Source of the DNA: Bacteroidota bacterium
Lineage (GTDB): Bacteria; Bacteroidota; Bacteroidia; Bacteroidales; Paludibacteraceae
Direction: 5' to 3'
DNA length: 38,696 nucleotides
Assembly (NCBI GenBank): GCA_017860345.1
Contig: JAFNAV010000022.1
Span: 1 to 38,696, forward strand
The notes beneath the pieces were generated by a model. The model searched no databases, was not told where the DNA came from, and saw nothing but the letters and a program-made list of their open reading frames with translations. Both the position numbers and the translations under genes were made by a program. Positions 21,558-28,748 of this stretch are shown piece after piece. Position 1 is the first letter of the stretch. Each line of letters opens with the position of its first letter.

Positions 21558-21578
21558 GATAAAAAACGGCCTCGTAAA

Positions 21579-21692
21579 TCCCTCTTAGGGAGGAATTAAA
21601 AGAGCACACACTGTATATTGAATTAGAATATTTTAATCAAAAAAAATCCGGAACCTCTCCCGGTTCTCCCTCCTATGGAGGAGTTAGAGGGG
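21579..21692 (+). repeat. Pair of imperfect 26-bp direct repeats between attenuator and leuA
   Basis: TCCCTCTTAGGGAGGAATTA (first 20 of 26 bases, from 21579) recurs as TCCCTCCTATGGAGGAGTTA (from 21667), with about 20 of 26 positions identical. Each copy contains its own small palindrome, for example CCTCC-TAT-GGAGG at 21669-21681. The second copy ends a few bases before the leuA ATG at 21700. This looks like an interspersed intergenic repeat of the kind scattered in Bacteroidetes genomes. An effect on leuA translation is possible but unproven. Confidence 0.55.
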
Positions 21693-21699
21693 GCTTATC

Positions 21700-23193
21700 A
21701 TGGATAAATTATTTATTTTTGACACCACATTACGCGACGGCGAACAAGTTCCCGGATGCCAGTTGAACACAATTGAAAAAATACAGGTAGCAAAAGCTCT
21801 TGAAACTCTCGGCGTGGATGTTATCGAAGCGGGATTTCCAATTTCGAGCCCGGGCGATTTTAATTCAGTGGTTGAAATATCAAAAGCCGTTACCTGGCCT
21901 ACTATTTGCGCCCTTACCCGCGGAGTTCAAAAGGATATAGATGTAGCTGCCGATGCACTAAAATTTGCAAAAAATAAACGTATCCATACTGGTATCGGAA
22001 CATCCGAATTTCATATTAAGTATAAATTTAATTCTACACAGGACGAAATTCTGGAACGCGCCGTAGCTGCCGTAAAATATGCGAAAAAATATGTAGAAGA
22101 TGTAGAATTTTACTGTGAAGATGCCGGACGTACCGACAATGTTTACCTGGCCCGGGTGGTTGAAGCTGTAATCAAAGCGGGTGCTACTGTTGTGAACATC
22201 CCCGATACCACCGGATATTGCCTGCCCTGGCAGTACGGCGAAAAAATCAAATTTCTGATGGAAAACGTAAATGGAGTACACAATGCTGTGCTGTCGACCC
22301 ATTGCCACAACGACCTTGGCATGGCTACTGCCAATACCATTTCCGGTGTTCTGAACGGAGCACGTCAGGTAGAGGTTACCATCAACGGTATTGGCGAACG
22401 TGCCGGTAACACTTCGCTCGAAGAAGTGGCTATGATTCTGAAATGCCACAAAGGCATGGATATAGATACTAACATCAATACACAAAAAATTTACCCCATA
22501 AGCCGCATGGTATCAAGCCTGATGAATATGCCGGTGCAACCCAACAAGGCCATCGTAGGCCGTAACGCTTTTGCACACTCATCGGGAATACATCAGGATG
22601 GTGTACTTAAAAACCGCGAAAGCTACGAAATTATGGACCCTACAGATGTGGGAATTGATAAAAACTCTATCGTACTTACTGCCCGCAGCGGACGAGCTGC
22701 CCTGAAACACCGTCTGAGTGTATTAGGCGTAGAAGTGGAAAACGGAAAGTTAGATGAAATATATGAAGCTTTTCTGAAACTTGCCGACAAGAAAAAAGAC
22801 ATTAACGATGATGACGTATTGGTACTGGCCGGCATGGAACGTACAGAAAAACAGCGCATCAAACTGGATTATTTGCAAGTTACATCGGGTATTGGAGTGA
22901 AAGCTGTTGCGAGTGTGGGATTGCTGATAGCCGGAGAAAAATTTGAAGCCGCAGCCACTGGCAATGGCCCTGTTGATGCTGCTATCAAAGCGCTGAAAAA
23001 AATCATCAACCGGACTATGACTCTTCAGGAATTTACAATCCAGTCGATGAGTAAAGGTAGCGACGATATGGGAAAAGTACATATGCAGGTAGAACACGCA
23101 GGCGTGGTATATTACGGTTTTGGCGCTAACACCGACATAGTTGCAGCTTCGGTAGAAGCTTATGTAAATGCGATAAATCAGTTTGTGAAATAG
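21700..23193 (+). CDS. leuA: 2-isopropylmalate synthase
   Basis: LeuA condenses 2-ketoisovalerate with acetyl-CoA, the first committed step to leucine. The 497-residue protein opens with [15 protein letters not shown], giving the catalytic R12 and metal ligand D13. H201 and H203 in [13 protein letters not shown] complete the metal site, and [14 protein letters not shown] follows. The C-terminal ~130 residues (from about residue 365) form the LeuA regulatory/dimerisation domain, so leucine feedback inhibition is expected on top of leader attenuation. Length is normal. It is the first gene after the attenuator and is followed by an inserted four-helix-bundle gene before leuC. Confidence 0.96.
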
Positions 23194-23195
23194 AC

Positions 23196-23700
23196 AACAG
23201 AAAACAGACGACTGACAACAGACTACAGTCAATGGACAACTGAAAAGGCAGAAGAAATGAAAAGTTTTGAAGATTTGAGAATTTGGCAGGAAGCCAGAGT
23301 TTTTGCTAATCAGATTTATGATTTAAGTGAAAATATGAGAGATTTCGGATTCAAAGATCAAATTCAAAGAGCAGCTCTTTCTGTCATGAATAATATTGCT
23401 GAAGGCTTCGATTATGGCTCAGATGCCATGTTTATCAAATATCTGGACATTTCTAAAGCAAGTTGTGGTGAAGTAAAAAGTATGTTGTATCTTGCAGAAG
23501 ATAGAAAGTACTGTGATTCTGAGAAAGCAAAATATCTTAGGGAAAAATCTAAAAGTATTTCTTCCGGAATACATGCATTAATTAAATATCTTAAAAATAA
23601 AAAAATAAAGAATAATATTAAAAATGAAGTGCGGATTCAAACTTCAATAAACAGAATGCTTTTTCTGTCATCTGTCGTCTGTTGTCCGCCGTCTACGAAG
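23196..23700. repeat. Inverted arms framing the first four-helix-bundle gene
   Basis: The left arm, right after the leuA stop, is built of CAACAGAC/GACGAC-type words. Its segment 23203-23223 (AACAGACGACTGACAACAGA plus C) is complementary at 17 of 21 positions to 23663-23683 in the right arm. The arms bracket the gene at 23257 and reach almost to the leuC start, so a leu transcript could fold with this gene in the loop. The layout recalls intervening sequences in 23S rRNA. Confidence 0.65.
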
Positions 23701-23718
23701 TATGAAAACATTATTTGA
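23257..23718 (+). CDS. Four-helix-bundle protein, S23/IVP-like, with read-through tail
   Basis: Residues 1-118 match the four-helix-bundle family best known from proteins encoded in 23S rRNA intervening sequences: [20 protein letters not shown], then [20 protein letters not shown], then [21 protein letters not shown] typical member ends near LIKYLKNKK (~118 residues). Here the frame runs about 35 codons further through the inverted right arm and stops 17 bases inside leuC. The tail ([18 protein letters not shown]) is therefore translated arm sequence and not a conserved domain. The molecular role of these small proteins is not known; the related fold of Avd binds nucleic acid in diversity-generating retroelements. 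Composition is A-rich compared with leuA and leuC, suggesting a separate origin. Confidence 0.88.
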
Positions 23719-25093
23719 CAAAATCTGGGATGCGCATGTCGTATCGTCGGTCGAAAACGGACCAACACAGTTGTACATCGACCGTCACTTCTGTCACGAA
23801 GTAACAAGTCCACAGGCATTTAACGGACTTCGTGAACGCGGTCTTAAAGTATTCCGTCCGGAACAGACCACCATGACGGCCGACCACAACACCCCAACCA
23901 TCAATCAGGATCAACCGGTAAAGGATCCTATTTCACGTAATCAGCTCGACACTTTTGCTAAAAATGCTGCTGAGTTTAATATGCCATTATTTTTTCCGCT
24001 TGGCCATACTAAAAATGGTGTGGTACACATCATTGGCCCCGAAAACGGATTTACTCAACCCGGCATGACCATTGTTTGTGGCGATAGCCATACATCAACC
24101 CATGGAGCCTTTGGAGCCATTGCTTTCGGGATAGGTACCAGCGAGGTAGAAATGGTACTGGCTACGCAATGTATTCTGCAAAGTCGTCCGAAAACGATGC
24201 GCATCACCTTCAACGGGAAACTCGGAGCTGGTGTAACGGCCAAAGACCTGGCGCTTTACATGATTGCCAAACTAACCACTGGTGGTGCTACCGGATATTT
24301 TGTGGAATATGCCGGCGAAGCTATCCGCAGCATGAGCATGGAGGAACGTATGACTGTATGTAACCTTTCTATCGAAATGGGTGCGCGCGGCGGACTTATT
24401 GCTCCGGATCAAACTACTTTCGATTATGTAAATGGTCGCGAATTTGCTCCTAAAGGCGAAGAATGGGATAAAAAACTGGCATACTGGAAAACTTTAAAAA
24501 CCGACGAAGGCGCTAAATTCGACAAAGAATTAGTATTCGATGCCGCTGATATTCAGCCTATGATTACCTACGGAACAAATCCGGGTATGGGCATGGGCAT
24601 TAAAGAAACTATCCCCACATTAGATACCATTGACGAAGCCGGACGCATTTCGTATCAGAAATCGTTGGATTATATGGGCTTTCAACCGGGCGAGAAACTT
24701 GAAGGGAAACTCATCGACTATGTGTTTCTGGGCAGTTGTACCAACGGGAGAATCGAAGATTTCCGCGTTTTTGCCAATTACGTAAAAGGTAAAAAGAAAG
24801 CCGACAATGTTGTAGCCTGGTTAGTTCCGGGAAGCTGGGTGGTTGAAAAACAAATCCGCGAAGAAGGGCTTTATGACATACTTACAACTGCCGGATTTGA
24901 ACTTCGTCAGCCGGGTTGTTCCGCATGTCTGGCCATGAACGACGACAAAGTACCAGCCGGCAAATACGCAGTTTCAACATCGAACCGCAACTTCGAAGGT
25001 CGTCAGGGTCCCGGAGCTCGTACTATTTTGGCTGGTCCGCTTGTAGCTGCTGCAGCTGCTGTAACAGGCCGTATCACTGATCCGAGAGGATAA
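23702..25093 (+). CDS. leuC: 3-isopropylmalate dehydratase large subunit
   Basis: LeuC, with LeuD, isomerises 2-isopropylmalate to 3-isopropylmalate using a 4Fe-4S cluster. The 463-residue length is normal. Cluster ligands are C346 ([12 protein letters not shown]) and C406/C409 ([10 protein letters not shown]). Other aconitase-family motifs are [40 protein letters not shown] and [16 protein letters not shown]. The start ATG lies 17 bases before the stop of the preceding inserted gene, in another frame, so its translation could be coupled to that gene. With the second synthase of this operon it may also act on citramalate. It is separated from leuD by a second four-helix-bundle insertion. Confidence 0.96.
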
Positions 25094-25662
25094 TATATGT
25101 GCCAATGTGCTAATATGCCAATGTGCCAATTTCCGAAATGAGCCAATTAGCCAATAAGTTAATTTGGCTAATGAAAGAAATGAAATAGTCTAATTTTAGA
25201 AATATACAAGGTTATTTGAACTTATGGCTGAATTACCTGAAACAGGAAACAGAATTGTTGATTTATCTTTTAGTTTTGCATTAAAGATAGTAGCTTATAC
25301 CTGTAGATTAGAAGAATTACGAAAGTATGTTATTTCTAATCAACTTTTGAAAAGTGGAACATCGATAGGTGCGAATGTACGAGAGGCACAAAACTGTGAA
25401 AGTAAGCCGGATTTTATACATAAATTTAAAATTGCAGCAAAAGAAGCAGAAGAAACAGAATATTGGCTGCTTTTGTGTAAGTATTCTGAAAATTACCCTT
25501 TTGAAGAATTTCTATTAGATGAAATAAAAGAAATACAAAAAATAATAAACAGTATAATAAACACGTCAAAAAGCAAGTAAGTCACTGCCAAGCATGTCGT
25601 AAACCATTAATATACAATACACTGCGATTGGTACATTGGCTTATTTTCTCATTGGCATATTA
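25091..25662. repeat. Inverted arms framing the second four-helix-bundle gene
   Basis: The left arm (25091-25165) consists of degenerate GTGCCAAT words. TAATATGCCAATG at 25111-25123 is perfectly complementary to CATTGGCATATTA at 25650-25662, and further GCCAAT/ATTGGC words pair in the same orientation (25101-25130 with 25626-25640). The left arm begins on the leuC stop codon and the right arm ends 5 bases before the leuD ATG. The gene at 25224 lies between them. Confidence 0.72.
25224..25580 (+). CDS. Four-helix-bundle protein, second subfamily
   Basis: The 118-residue protein belongs to the same broad four-helix-bundle superfamily as the gene at 23257 but to a different branch: LSFSFALKIVAYTCRLEELR, then SNQLLKSGTSIGANVREAQN, then FIHKFKIAAKEAEETEYWLL. 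It has normal length, no signal peptide and no membrane segment. The two proteins share little beyond the fold pattern, so they look like independent arrivals, not a duplication. It stands alone between leuC and leuD (131-base and 87-base gaps), both gaps filled by arm repeats. Its function is unknown, and nothing links it to leucine metabolism. Confidence 0.9.
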   Translation: MAELPETGNRIVDLSFSFALKIVAYTCRLEELRKYVISNQLLKSGTSIGANVREAQNCESKPDFIHKFKIAAKEAEETEYWLLLCKYSENYPFEEFLLDEIKEIQKIINSIINTSKSK

Positions 25663-25667
25663 AAAAT

Positions 25668-26255
25668 ATGGAAAAATTTGTAACATTAACATCAACAATG
25701 GTTCCGCTTCCGATTGAGAATGTGGATACCGATCAGATTATACCGGCACGCTTCCTGAAAGCGACCGATAAAAACGGTTTTGGCGATAATCTTTTTGCCG
25801 ACTGGCGCTACAATAAAGATGGAAGTCCCAAGGCCGACTTTGTGCTCAACAACCAGCTTTACACTGGCGCTTCGGTACTTGTAGCTGGTAAAAACTTTGG
25901 ATCTGGCTCCAGCCGCGAACATGCAGCCTGGGCTATTGCCGGATTTGGGTTTAAAGTAGTGGTATCGAGCTTTTTTGCAGACATTTTTCGCAACAACGCT
26001 CTGAATAACGGCGTATTGCCGGTTATTGTCTCTCCTGAATTTTTATCAAACATATTTGCTGCTATAAATTCAGATGCAAAATCGACAATCACTATCGATC
26101 TCCAAAATCAAACCATTACCAACAATGCTGATGGTAAATCAGAATCTTTTGAAATCAATGCTTATAAAAAAGAGTGTTTGCTCAATGGATTGGACGATAT
26201 TGATTATTTGCTAAGCAAAAGAGAGCTAACAGAAGCATACGAGAAAGCAAGATAA
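25668..26255 (+). CDS. leuD: 3-isopropylmalate dehydratase small subunit
   Basis: LeuD is the swivel subunit of isopropylmalate isomerase and pairs with LeuC. The 195-residue protein has the family landmarks: [20 protein letters not shown] near the N-terminus, then [20 protein letters not shown] with the SREHA substrate loop, then [20 protein letters not shown]. Length is typical of the bacterial LeuD1 form. It follows the right arm of the second inserted element by 5 bases, so its translation-initiation region is essentially repeat sequence. It is followed by the gene-less inverted repeat. Confidence 0.96.
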
Positions 26256-26260
26256 ATAAT

Positions 26261-26490
26261 ATGCCAATAAATTAATGTGCCAATAAATTTAATGTGCCAA
26301 TGTGCCAATAATTTAATGTGCCAATAAACCAATTGATTAACAAGTCAATTAATTTATTAAGAGGTTGTAAAATTAGCATATTGACACATTAGCACATTGG
26401 CTTATTTGCATATTGGCACATTAGCAAATTATTCGCATTAGCATATTAATCGCATTGGCACATTGGCACATTAATTTATTGGCACATTAA
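26261..26490. repeat. Large gene-less inverted repeat of GTGCCAAT words
   Basis: The left arm (about 26261-26345) is made of direct copies of AATGTGCCAAT/CCAATAAATTA words. The right arm (about 26377-26490) holds the same words inverted. CCAATAAATTAATGTGCCAA (from 26264) is perfectly complementary, over 21 bases, to 26462-26482. The remaining ~35 bases form the loop. No gene lies inside. The words are the same as in the arms around the gene at 25224, so this may be a solo or emptied copy. Confidence 0.75.
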
Positions 26491-26503
26491 TCACATTTGT
26501 ACT

Positions 26504-28048
26504 ATGATAGAAATAATGGATACCACCCTACGCGATGGTGAACAGACATCGGGGGTTTCTTTTGCTGCACAGGAAAAGCTGAGCGTTGCCCGGCTTTTGC
26601 TCGAAGAGCTTGGCGTAGACAGGATTGAAATTGCTTCTGCAAGAGTATCAGAGGGCGAGTATACATCAGTTAAACGGGTAGCTGAATGGGCTCGTAGTCA
26701 CGGACATATAGGCAAAGTTGAAGTGCTGGGTTTTGTTGACGGACGTACTTCGCTGGAGTGGATAAAAAATGCTGGTTGCGAAGTGATTAACCTCCTTTGT
26801 AAAGGCTCACTTAAACATTGCACCTATCAGCTCAAAAAAACACCTGAACAACATATTGTTGATGTAAAACAGGTGCTGGCCAATGCACGCGAAATGGGTG
26901 TTACGGTCAACATATACCTCGAAGACTGGTCCAATGGCATGCGCGATTCGGAAGAGTATGTTTTCTTTATGGTGGATTCGCTAAGAAATGAAAGCATCAA
27001 ACGTTTCATGCTACCCGACACGCTCGGCGTTCTTAATCCTGATGAAACCCGTGCTTTTTGCGAAAAAATGATAGCGCGTTACCCAGAACTTCATTTTGAT
27101 TTTCATGCACATAACGATTACGACCTGGCTGTTGCCAACGTTTTTGAAGCAGTAAAAGCGGGCATAAAAGGGGTACACGTTACCGTAAACGGCCTTGGTG
27201 AGCGCGCTGGCAATGCACCGCTCACCAGCGTACTTGCCGTATTGCACGACCATGCAGGAACTACCACCCGCATCAACGAAGACCGGGTATACTACGTAAG
27301 CAAGGTTATCGAAACCTATTCCGGCATACGTATCCCTCACAACAAGCCCGTTATCGGCGAAAATGTTTTCACGCAGGTAGCAGGCGTACATGCCGATGGC
27401 GATAACAAAAAAAACCTGTACTTCAACGACTTACTACCGGAACGTTTTGGTCGTACACGCCAATATGCTTTAGGAAAAACTTCGGGCAAAGCCAATATTC
27501 TGAAAAATCTGCAACAACTTGGTATAGAACTTGACGACCAATTGATGCAAAAAGTAACGCAACGTGTGATTGAGCTCGGAGATAAAAAAGAACTTATTTC
27601 TATTGATGAATTGCCATATATTGTAGCTGATGTACTTAACAGCGAACAGGAAGAACAATCCATCCAGCTCTTGAATTATTCGTTAGCGCTTTCTTCCGGA
27701 TTACGGCCTATTGCTGCTGTAAAAATGTCGATAAACGGTGAAACCTATGAGCAATCGGCTTCGGGTGGAGGCCAGTTCAATGCTGTTTCCAAAGCGATGT
27801 ATAAAATTTACAAAACCCTTGGAAAATCAACTCCCGAATTACTGGATTACGAAGTGGTAATACCGCCGGGAGGACAAACTAATGCCATCGTTCAGACTAT
27901 TATAACATGGAAGTTTGATGATAAAACGTTTAAAACCCGCGGATTAGATGTAGACCAAACAGTAGCTGCCATCAAAGCTACTATGAAAATGCTGAATATT
28001 ATCGAAACAGGCAATATCCCTGTAATTAATTATAATCATTTGCCATAA
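26504..28048 (+). CDS. 2-isopropylmalate synthase homologue, possible (R)-citramalate synthase
   Basis: A second member of the LeuA/CimA/homocitrate synthase family, 514 residues. It has the catalytic [12 protein letters not shown] (R10, D11), H201/H203 in HAHNDYDLAVAN, GLGERAGNAPLTSV and a C-terminal LeuA-type regulatory domain. It is clearly divergent from the LeuA of this operon (for example FMLPDTLGVLNPDETRAF, DFHAHNDYD). Since leuA is already present, the likeliest role is condensing pyruvate with acetyl-CoA to citramalate. LeuC, LeuD and LeuB can then take citramalate to 2-ketobutyrate for isoleucine. This is inference from context; the mixed Leu and Ile codons in the leader peptide agree with it. 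A second isopropylmalate synthase is the alternative. Confidence 0.88.
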   Translation: MIEIMDTTLRDGEQTSGVSFAAQEKLSVARLLLEELGVDRIEIASARVSEGEYTSVKRVAEWARSHGHIGKVEVLGFVDGRTSLEWIKNAGCEVINLLCKGSLKHCTYQLKKTPEQHIVDVKQVLANAREMGVTVNIYLEDWSNGMRDSEEYVFFMVDSLRNESIKRFMLPDTLGVLNPDETRAFCEKMIARYPELHFDFHAHNDYDLAVANVFEAVKAGIKGVHVTVNGLGERAGNAPLTSVLAVLHDHAGTTTRINEDRVYYVSKVIETYSGIRIPHNKPVIGENVFTQVAGVHADGDNKKNLYFNDLLPERFGRTRQYALGKTSGKANILKNLQQLGIELDDQLMQKVTQRVIELGDKKELISIDELPYIVADVLNSEQEEQSIQLLNYSLALSSGLRPIAAVKMSINGETYEQSASGGGQFNAVSKAMYKIYKTLGKSTPELLDYEVVIPPGGQTNAIVQTIITWKFDDKTFKTRGLDVDQTVAAIKATMKMLNIIETGNIPVINYNHLP

Positions 28049-28123: not shown

Positions 28124-28459
28124 ATGAAAATTAAACGTCAGGTCATTGCTTATAAAAGACATTTTCTTGACTTTTATGAATCTCAATCTTTAATGGTTCA
28201 ACGAAAAATAGAATGGACCATCGGATTGGTTGTTGAGCTGGATAAGGTTCCTGAGAAATATTTTAAACATATCAACGAAACTAAACTGTATGAAATCAGA
28301 GTAGAGGTAGAAGGTAATATCTTTAGAATTTTTTCTTTCTTTGATAAAGGAAATATAGTTGTACTTGGTAATGGATTTGTAAAGAAAACTCAAAAGACCC
28401 CAATAAAAGAGATACAAAGGGCTTTAAAAATTATGGAGGAATATCAGAATGAAAAATGA
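28124..28459 (+). CDS. RelE/HigB-type toxin of a type II toxin-antitoxin system
   Basis: The 111-residue basic protein has the layout of the HigB/Gp49 branch of the RelE fold: an N-terminal helix pair, then KYFKHINETKLYEIRVEVEG, then NIFRIFSFFDKGNIVVLGNG and FVKKTQKTPIKEIQRALKI. Such toxins are ribosome-dependent mRNA interferases. It is followed by an overlapping XRE gene (11 bases), the toxin-first order of higBA modules. It has its own promoter and lies within the leucine operon, between the second synthase and leuB. No truncation is seen. Confidence 0.9.
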   Translation: MKIKRQVIAYKRHFLDFYESQSLMVQRKIEWTIGLVVELDKVPEKYFKHINETKLYEIRVEVEGNIFRIFSFFDKGNIVVLGNGFVKKTQKTPIKEIQRALKIMEEYQNEK

Positions 28460-28748
28460 AAATATTACGACATTTGAAGAAATTCTGGATAAGAAATACG
28501 GATCAAAAGGCAATGAAACGCGGGAAGAATGGGAACAGGAGTTCGAAGCGTTTAAACTGGGCGTTTTAATCGAAGAGGCGCGTAATCGTCTGGGAATGAC
28601 GCAAGAACAGTTAGCACAAAAATGTGGAACAAATAAATCGTACATTTCGCGTATTGAGAATAATGCCAGTGACATCAGACTTTCTACATTGATAAAAATT
28701 GTCAATCAAGGACTTGGCGGGCATATAAAGCTGACCTTAGATGTGTAG
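28449..28748 (+). CDS. XRE-family antitoxin, HigA-like
   Basis: The 99-residue protein has a C-terminal XRE helix-turn-helix: EEARNRLGMTQEQLAQKCGT, then NKSYISRIENNASDIRLSTL. Its N-terminal ~35 residues are acidic (FEEILDKKYGSKGNETREEW) and are the likely toxin-binding part. It overlaps the toxin stop by 11 bases in another frame, indicating coupled translation. Antitoxins of this type also repress their own promoter; the promoter at 28090-28119 is the candidate target. It stands 198 bases before leuB, a gap without another gene. Confidence 0.92.
   Translation: MKNENITTFEEILDKKYGSKGNETREEWEQEFEAFKLGVLIEEARNRLGMTQEQLAQKCGTNKSYISRIENNASDIRLSTLIKIVNQGLGGHIKLTLDV

Follow-up and report, generated by a model that had tools for sequence, protein, structure and literature searches.

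Two four-helix-bundle genes in the leu operon of a Bacteroidales bacterium: probable cargo of small operon-junction elements with word-array ends

The leu operon on contig JAFNAV010000022.1 of a Paludibacteraceae bacterium (Bacteroidota; assembly GCA_017860345.1), of which the whole stretch of 38,696 nucleotides was analysed (hereafter the window), harbours two small genes of the S23/IVP four-helix-bundle group, one at the joint of leuA and leuC (element 1) and one at that of leuC and leuD (element 2), each enclosed by inverted arms of short repeated words. Comparison with related genomes suggests that both genes are probably cargo of small (~450–580 bp) mobile elements residing mostly at operon junctions and forming one widespread family with word-array ends. 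The following features are present in this part of the window:

21700..23193, + strand: leuA, host gene upstream of element 1 (TIGR00973 / PRK00915)
23191..23222, + strand: element 1 5' arm with CAACAGAC / GACGAC words; it overlaps the stop codon of leuA (inverted repeat)
23257..23718, + strand: element 1 gene, IVP / four-helix-bundle protein, C-terminal tail read from the 3' arm (PF05635, E 7.8e-31)
23664..23695, + strand: element 1 3' arm (inverted repeat)
23702..25093, + strand: leuC, host gene (TIGR00170)
25100..25156, + strand: element 2 5' arm (GTGCCAAT words; direct repeat and inverted repeat)
25224..25580, + strand: element 2 gene, IVP / four-helix-bundle protein of another clade (PF05635, E 9.2e-22)
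25627..25662, + strand: element 2 3' arm (inverted repeat at 25643–25662; outer words by eye)
25668..26255, + strand: leuD, host gene (TIGR00171)
26256..26503, + strand: element 3, gene-less inverted GTGCCAAT hairpin at the joint of leuD and a citramalate-synthase-like gene (repeat search, RNA fold)
26504..28048, + strand: citramalate/isopropylmalate-synthase-like gene, host gene downstream of element 3 (NF042433 match below its own cut-off)

Assignment of both genes to the S23/IVP group, proposed in an initial annotation made from the letters alone, is borne out by profile matches above the curated cut-offs (33.8 bits for PF05635, 24 bits for TIGR02436), with 106.9 and 102 bits for the element 1 protein and 77.7 and 89.4 bits for the element 2 protein, respectively. 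The two proteins fall into separate protein clusters, in agreement with their presumed membership of different branches. A fold model of the element 1 protein reached a predicted local distance difference test score (pLDDT) of 94.5 (residues 1–116), and the four-helix bundle fold of solved PF05635 members was found. As judged from its substitution pattern (nonsynonymous rate dN 0.03–0.05, synonymous rate dS 0.44–1.87; three orthologues), the element 2 IVP protein is under purifying selection.

The inverted arms with their different words were likewise recovered as annotated, pairing 23191–23222 with 23664–23695 in element 1 (32 nt, 78 % complementary; 23-nt core, 87 %) and 25111–25130 with 25643–25662 in element 2 (20 nt, 85 % complementary). 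The same applies to the stop-to-start span of each element, from the leuA stop (23193) to the leuC start (23702) and from the leuC stop (25093) to the leuD start (25668). A correction concerns the open reading frame (ORF) of element 1, which reads across its own 3' arm and ends 17 nt inside leuC. Relative to its orthologue at locus L065, a frame shift is apparent near the C-terminus (23560–23718, by eye), so that the tail of the listed 153-aa protein is probably encoded by the arm. Folded as RNA, both intervals outperformed all of 100 shuffles (z −2.6 for element 1, −3.7 for element 2), consistent with the long stems that had been anticipated. A third GTGCCAAT inverted array, gene-less and overlooked in the initial annotation, lies at 26256–26503 in the same operon (RNA fold −83.6 kcal/mol, z −8.3).

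The assembly to which the window belongs (G000; 3.27 Mb, 86 % complete) contains six IVP genes, each flanked by inverted arms, which represent five word types in total. The pattern TGCCAATNTGCCAAT was matched 13 times (reversed control 0), clustering at nine places, two with and seven without an IVP gene; the retrieved places include gene–gene joints and, by eye, tRNA–tRNA joints. Gene-less GTGCCAAT hairpins (L038, L039), seen by eye, lie between apparent tRNA genes of two clusters in this genome that resemble each other.

Recurrence of such arms with varying word types in related genomes, which the initial annotation had proposed to test, was evident from 60 genomes of the genus and order (own included), 50 of them with PF05635 genes. 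From these, 110 loci were drawn, and a profile search of these and the own-genome loci yielded 116 IVP places, 113 with sufficient flank. The arm score compares the 5' flank with the reverse complement of the 3' flank, a limit of 29 representing the 99th percentile of shuffles. The median score was 39, compared to 19 when flanks of different loci were paired; 91 of the 113 loci exceeded this limit, and their words differ by clade. A scan of further genome contigs provided 26 PF05635 loci, of which 25 were scored (at least 4 of the 25 already in the genus set). Above the limit were 16, including loci from Chlorobi, Balneola, Nitrospirae, Flavobacterium and two Patescibacteria (L196, L202); below it were two other Patescibacteria (L198, L200), Polaribacter (L195) and all three alphaproteobacterial records. 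The Nitrospirae locus (L197) carries the AGAACAAAGA arm word of a Bacteroidales clade, at 44 % protein identity. In a phylum-wide sample of 118 genomes, among them the own genome, 90 were found to have PF05635, and 13 of the 30 loci retrieved were over the limit. Universality of arms at PF05635 loci was rejected, 22/113, 17/30 and 9/25 loci of the three sets not being above 29. A control with neighbouring ORFs (14/120 above the limit) is contaminated, because leu-element genes were left in: among the 12 rows listed, 10 represent leu-joint IVP or GxxExxY genes by position and 2 adjoining leu genes. In a random 400 kb of G016, a one-contig genus genome, 11 of 176 gaps scored at least 35, 8 of these being convergent.

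The arm words among the genus/order loci include AGTTGACAGTTGAT, AAGAACCAAGAGTC, GTTACGAGTTACAAG, TTGGTTGATTGGTTAATT, GTTTCGTGTTCCGTG, AAAGTTTATAAAG and GAAGTTAGG. The dominant repeat lag in the 91 armed loci was 7 in 34, 14 in 12 and 8 in 6, the mean lag-7 self-match amounting to 0.377 versus 0.294 in 91 control gaps; lag 7 was again highest in the phylum-wide loci. The arms are furthermore polar, since G exceeds C in the 5' arm of 74 and falls below it in 8 of the 91 loci, with the same tendency phylum-wide (26 vs 1 of 30). Across the loci compared, the word sequence changes with the protein clade while the word length (most often 7 nt, sometimes 8–9) stays. A one-directional, gene-less array of 39 TGCCAAT words (~450 bp) was observed between two genes of another genome (L226 737–1191, G070:C14).

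Both neighbouring genes are co-directional with the IVP gene in 96 of the 101 loci with readable neighbours, compared to 155 of 276 gene triples in 400 kb of G016 (p ~1e-18). The same holds for 15 of 17 further-contig loci with readable neighbours (18 given) and for 25 of the 30 phylum-wide loci. As measured in 81 loci, the median distance between the upstream stop codon and the beginning of the 5' arm is 0 nt (quartiles −5, 9), and that between the end of the 3' arm and the next start is 10 nt (quartiles 6, 20). For 226 co-directional gaps in G016, by comparison, the median length is 73.5 nt. The stop-to-start fit of the leu elements thus reflects a general tendency. An association with rRNA was rejected, since 18 distant IVP loci gave no Rfam match of any kind and a tRNA was the sole Rfam match in the window.

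Occupancy of the leu joints was classed by eye in 30 genus genomes (own included). At the leuA–leuC joint (29 readable), an IVP gene with GACAACAG-type arms is present in 6 (some damaged or shortened) and a 90-nt gene-less hairpin of the same type in 2. CCCCTAACCCC hairpins occupy a further 10, and the remaining 11 have other gaps of 3–127 nt, some of which may hide short hairpins. The leuC–leuD joint (30 genomes) is occupied by an IVP gene with GTGCCAAT arms in 4, by a GxxExxY gene in 12 (its arms being of the ACGCAAAT type in 9 and built of another word in 3) and by CCCCTAA hairpins in 2, with gaps of 12–50 nt in the other 12. PF13366 matches were obtained at all 12 GxxExxY places, L056 being confirmed by additional profile matches. 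Empty sites, which the initial annotation had proposed to look for, do exist at both joints, in the form of element-free short gaps in several genus genomes. On a leuC tree, the junction states change 16 times at leuA–leuC (29 genomes) and 15 times at leuC–leuD (30 genomes). Static regulation of the leu operon by conserved hairpins was rejected on account of these changes and of several bare junctions.

A second junction, chosen for the IVP element that it holds in L022, was examined in the 20 genomes with the best matches. The two genes are adjacent in 18, of which 14 possess arms beyond all of 200 shuffles, belonging to five word groups. An IVP gene is present in four genomes (one, L280, fails the arm test), and L291 and L295 carry the same words as the IVP form in a gene-less version of 162–164 nt. 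Gene-bearing and gene-less forms of one element thus share one site, and unrelated cassettes replace them in other genomes.

Some further peculiarities of these cassettes were noted. In L066 and similar loci, CCCCTAA cassettes upstream of leuC seem to furnish LeuC with a new start codon and to extend it in frame at its N-terminus, the extension reading like ...TPPLGGRGAAT in L066 (by eye; frame checked in L066 only of ten). Extra or mixed arm words in L051 (leuC–leuD), L059 (leuA–leuC) and L279 resemble one cassette next to the remains of another (by eye). In the window itself, the leuA leader (21571–21696) looks by eye like the CCCCTAA / GGGGGAGTTAGAGGGGGCTT hairpin cassettes at leuC–leuD of L057 and L061, and was not picked up as an inverted repeat in the repeat search.

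Sharing of arm words was assessed for pairs of loci without detected shared flanks, binned by protein identity. Arms were shared in 213 of 5478 pairs below 0.5 identity, 34 of 310 at 0.5–0.6, 70 of 127 at 0.6–0.7, 50 of 65 at 0.7–0.8 and 10 of 11 above; in case of pairs from the same genome, words were shared by 4 of 4 above 0.7. In most of the 26 listed pairs at different sites, DNA homology reaches roughly to the arm edges, few stopping short or overrunning. In one genome, for example, homology between L135 and L142 extends from −99 to +149, with arm edges at −80/+143 and −111/+76. Word sharing at different sites together with homology up to the arm edges suggests that arms and gene move together.

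A second, unrelated type of cargo is represented by the GxxExxY protein (TIGR04256, PF13366; PDDEXK_3, nuclease-type fold), which was found in 39 of 48 genus genomes. Its cassettes resemble those of the IVP proteins in being armed, placed at operon joints and flanked by co-directional neighbours (both in 24 of 26 loci), and differ in the type of arm words (e.g., ACGCAAAT, CGCAGAG, CACGAAG). An arm score above 29 (limit borrowed from the IVP set, 300-nt flank) was obtained for 19 of 28 usable loci (of 30), to be read with the caveat that unlike loci often share words, the 95th percentile of mismatched pairs being 57. A heptamer period was looked for in 18 loci chosen for their arms and was not found, a weak period of 8–9 nt being apparent. 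GxxExxY is mentioned in two papers, in one of which the gene figures as an incidental neighbour.

At the level of sequence comparison, the arm–gene–arm unit, its inverted word arrays with their polarity and word length, the placement at operon joints, the sense orientation of the cargo and the turnover at the sites are established. In the proposed mobile element, the arms probably serve as the termini for movement. Sharing its fold with Avd from diversity-generating retroelements (DGR), and with five chains per entry in its two solved relatives, the IVP protein may bind arrays of its own cognate word, with one word per subunit. Such binding would pair both arms and tag the element, in its RNA or single-stranded DNA form, for an enzyme acting in trans. 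The location within a host operon would supply the transcript of the cargo gene, and gene-less copies would represent non-autonomous derivatives.

Several observations weigh against mobile elements of this kind. Mobility is deduced from comparison, no movement event having been observed, and target-site duplications were not found (by eye only, in species-level empty vs filled sites with too diverged flanks). In agreement with the initial annotation, no candidate mover, neither a transposase nor a reverse transcriptase, occurs among the 29 window proteins scanned; the search did not extend to the rest of the genome. The arm limit was missed by 22 of the 113 genus/order loci, by 17 of the 30 phylum-wide loci and by all three distant alphaproteobacterial relatives, and 26 of the 113 loci pass it in direct orientation, too. 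State changes at the leu joints rest on classes assigned by eye, with 10 of 27 inner branches of the leuC tree open, and their count is inflated because "empty" and "short" as well as the two GxxExxY types were counted separately. Words are shared by only 2 of 7 same-genome pairs at 0.6–0.7 identity and by none of 10 at 0.5–0.6. The word rule is broken by L158 and L159, which encode identical proteins (identity 1.00) between unlike arms, both genes having internal stops. Moreover, word and protein could be paired simply because whole elements share a common ancestor, and not because one recognises the other.

The initial annotation had considered the elements as mRNA-borne, possibly mobile relatives of the 23S rRNA intervening sequences (IVS). 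It is quite possible, albeit short of probable, and compatible with the mobile elements proposed here, that the arms pair in the leu transcript and that RNase III cuts the stem, the insert being removed or isolated and tolerated by the neighbouring genes. Operon-internal sense placement and stable RNA folds conform to this idea, and RNase III cuts the 23S IVS of Coxiella burnetii (S23 ORF, 28-bp terminal stem) in vitro, as described in passages of PMC4990558. Arms also match their own partners better than those of relatives, in 298:27 of 326 pairs at 0.55–0.7 identity, 83:19 of 103 at 0.7–0.8, 33:16 of 53 at 0.8–0.9 and 6:5 of 12 above. However, selection on a sense stem should favour G-U mismatches, and no such excess was found (G-U 129, A-C 127), so that sense-RNA selection was rejected on this measure. 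The arm-fit signal is, in addition, mixed among orthologous leu elements, being clear for IVP1 (12:2) and the CCCC hairpins at leuA–leuC (38:3), weak for IVP2 (4:2) and absent for both GxxExxY types (16:17, 1:2). The earlier proposal is supported in part. A retro-mobile form, in which the element moves as RNA and the IVP oligomer, like Avd in the case of the DGR enzyme, hands it over to a trans-acting reverse transcriptase, would agree with the Avd-like fold and the sense placement between co-directional genes. It is considered unlikely, as the sense bias is equally explained by the need for a host transcript and the 29 window proteins include no reverse transcriptase (whole genomes were not searched for one).

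If intercistronic hairpins were useful to the host, e.g., for mRNA stability or differential expression, any stem-supplying element would be kept and the genes would be mere passengers. The significant arms at the second junction in 14 of 18 genomes despite differing words, and the persistence of arms around damaged or shortened genes at leuA–leuC (L043, L044 and L048, with own scores of 42, 29 and 25), could be explained in this way. Yet the same leu junctions shrink to 3–21 nt in other genus genomes, their states change 15–16 times on the tree, and IVP2 is under purifying selection as a protein, rendering such host benefit rather improbable as the explanation. Words that vary freely, look slippage-prone and in one gene-less array (L226) reach 39 copies over ~450 bp, together with the lack of a strand-specific mismatch signal, would suit a neutral by-product without recognition or function, i.e., expansion of words by slippage and their copying across the hairpin by template switching. 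Slippage fails to account for the recurrence of the 7-nt length in different clades, the fixed arm polarity (74 vs 8 of 91; 26 vs 1 of 30), the sense placement between co-directional genes or the tie of the word to the protein clade, and a neutral origin therefore seems very unlikely.

A broader reading is put forward as doubtful: IVP rings may be sequence-specific readers of heptamer arrays, each subunit taking one word, and the arms may mark a new class of operon-junction mobile elements in Bacteroidota and several other phyla, defined by arms and insertion site and not by the cargo gene, with the 23S rRNA IVS as a special branch and GxxExxY as second cargo. Retention of word length with changing word sequence would be a specific and testable sign of an array-reading protein. 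Genes are frequently annotated as "four helix bundle protein" or "GxxExxY protein" without a function, and both families would gain context as hairpin-cassette cargo. If true, this reading would also offer a possible origin for the long-known 23S rRNA intervening sequences and an element class altering metabolic-operon junctions between related species.

Apart from these elements, a Gp49-like (HigB-type) gene and a helix-turn-helix (HigA/HipB-like) gene at 28124–28748, probably a toxin–antitoxin pair, are placed between the citramalate-synthase-like gene and leuB. A search for inverted repeats of at least 14 nt in the gaps beside this gene pair found none.

Among known systems, the REP/RAYT elements (repetitive extragenic palindromes with their associated tyrosine transposases; REPtrons) consist of an HUH/Y1 transposase gene between inverted repeats, with gene-less repeat copies elsewhere in the genome. 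The present elements share inverted repeats around a gene and gene-less copies, but differ in their cargo (PF05635 helical bundle or PF13366 PDDEXK protein), in arms that are word arrays rather than a single palindrome, and in the operon-junction site. Miniature inverted-repeat transposable elements (MITEs) and Correia/NEMIS are small inverted-repeat elements, the mRNA stems of NEMIS being cut by RNase III. The terminal inverted repeats of DNA transposons and MITEs are found here as well, in the form of word arrays instead of one fixed repeat; in contrast to MITEs and Correia/NEMIS, a conserved gene is present in many of the elements described here, and the word varies with the clade.

Literature searches, with subscription journals and preprints outside their coverage, yielded no description of arms around IVP or GxxExxY genes. 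TAACTGA heptamer repeats are intergenic in some Bacteroidetes including Paludibacter propionicigenes, as reported in passages of PMC4679880, and their word resembles one IVP arm (L139, by eye). Unlike the inverted arms, they are almost all direct according to the same passages, and the terms "four helix", "S23", "23S" and "intervening" do not occur in the main text of that article. Avd of the DGR shares 7–8 % identity with the IVP proteins, and in contrast to DGR no reverse transcriptase is located beside the Avd-like gene, judging from the 29 window proteins scanned. The 23S rRNA IVS, that of Coxiella being termed a selfish element in the abstract of PMC4990558, resemble the leu elements in having a PF05635 ORF between complementary arms. 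They reside in an rRNA gene, whereas the leu elements lie between protein genes, and the elements described here are further distinguished by copy-variable word-array arms, gene-less copies and sites taken by other cargo.

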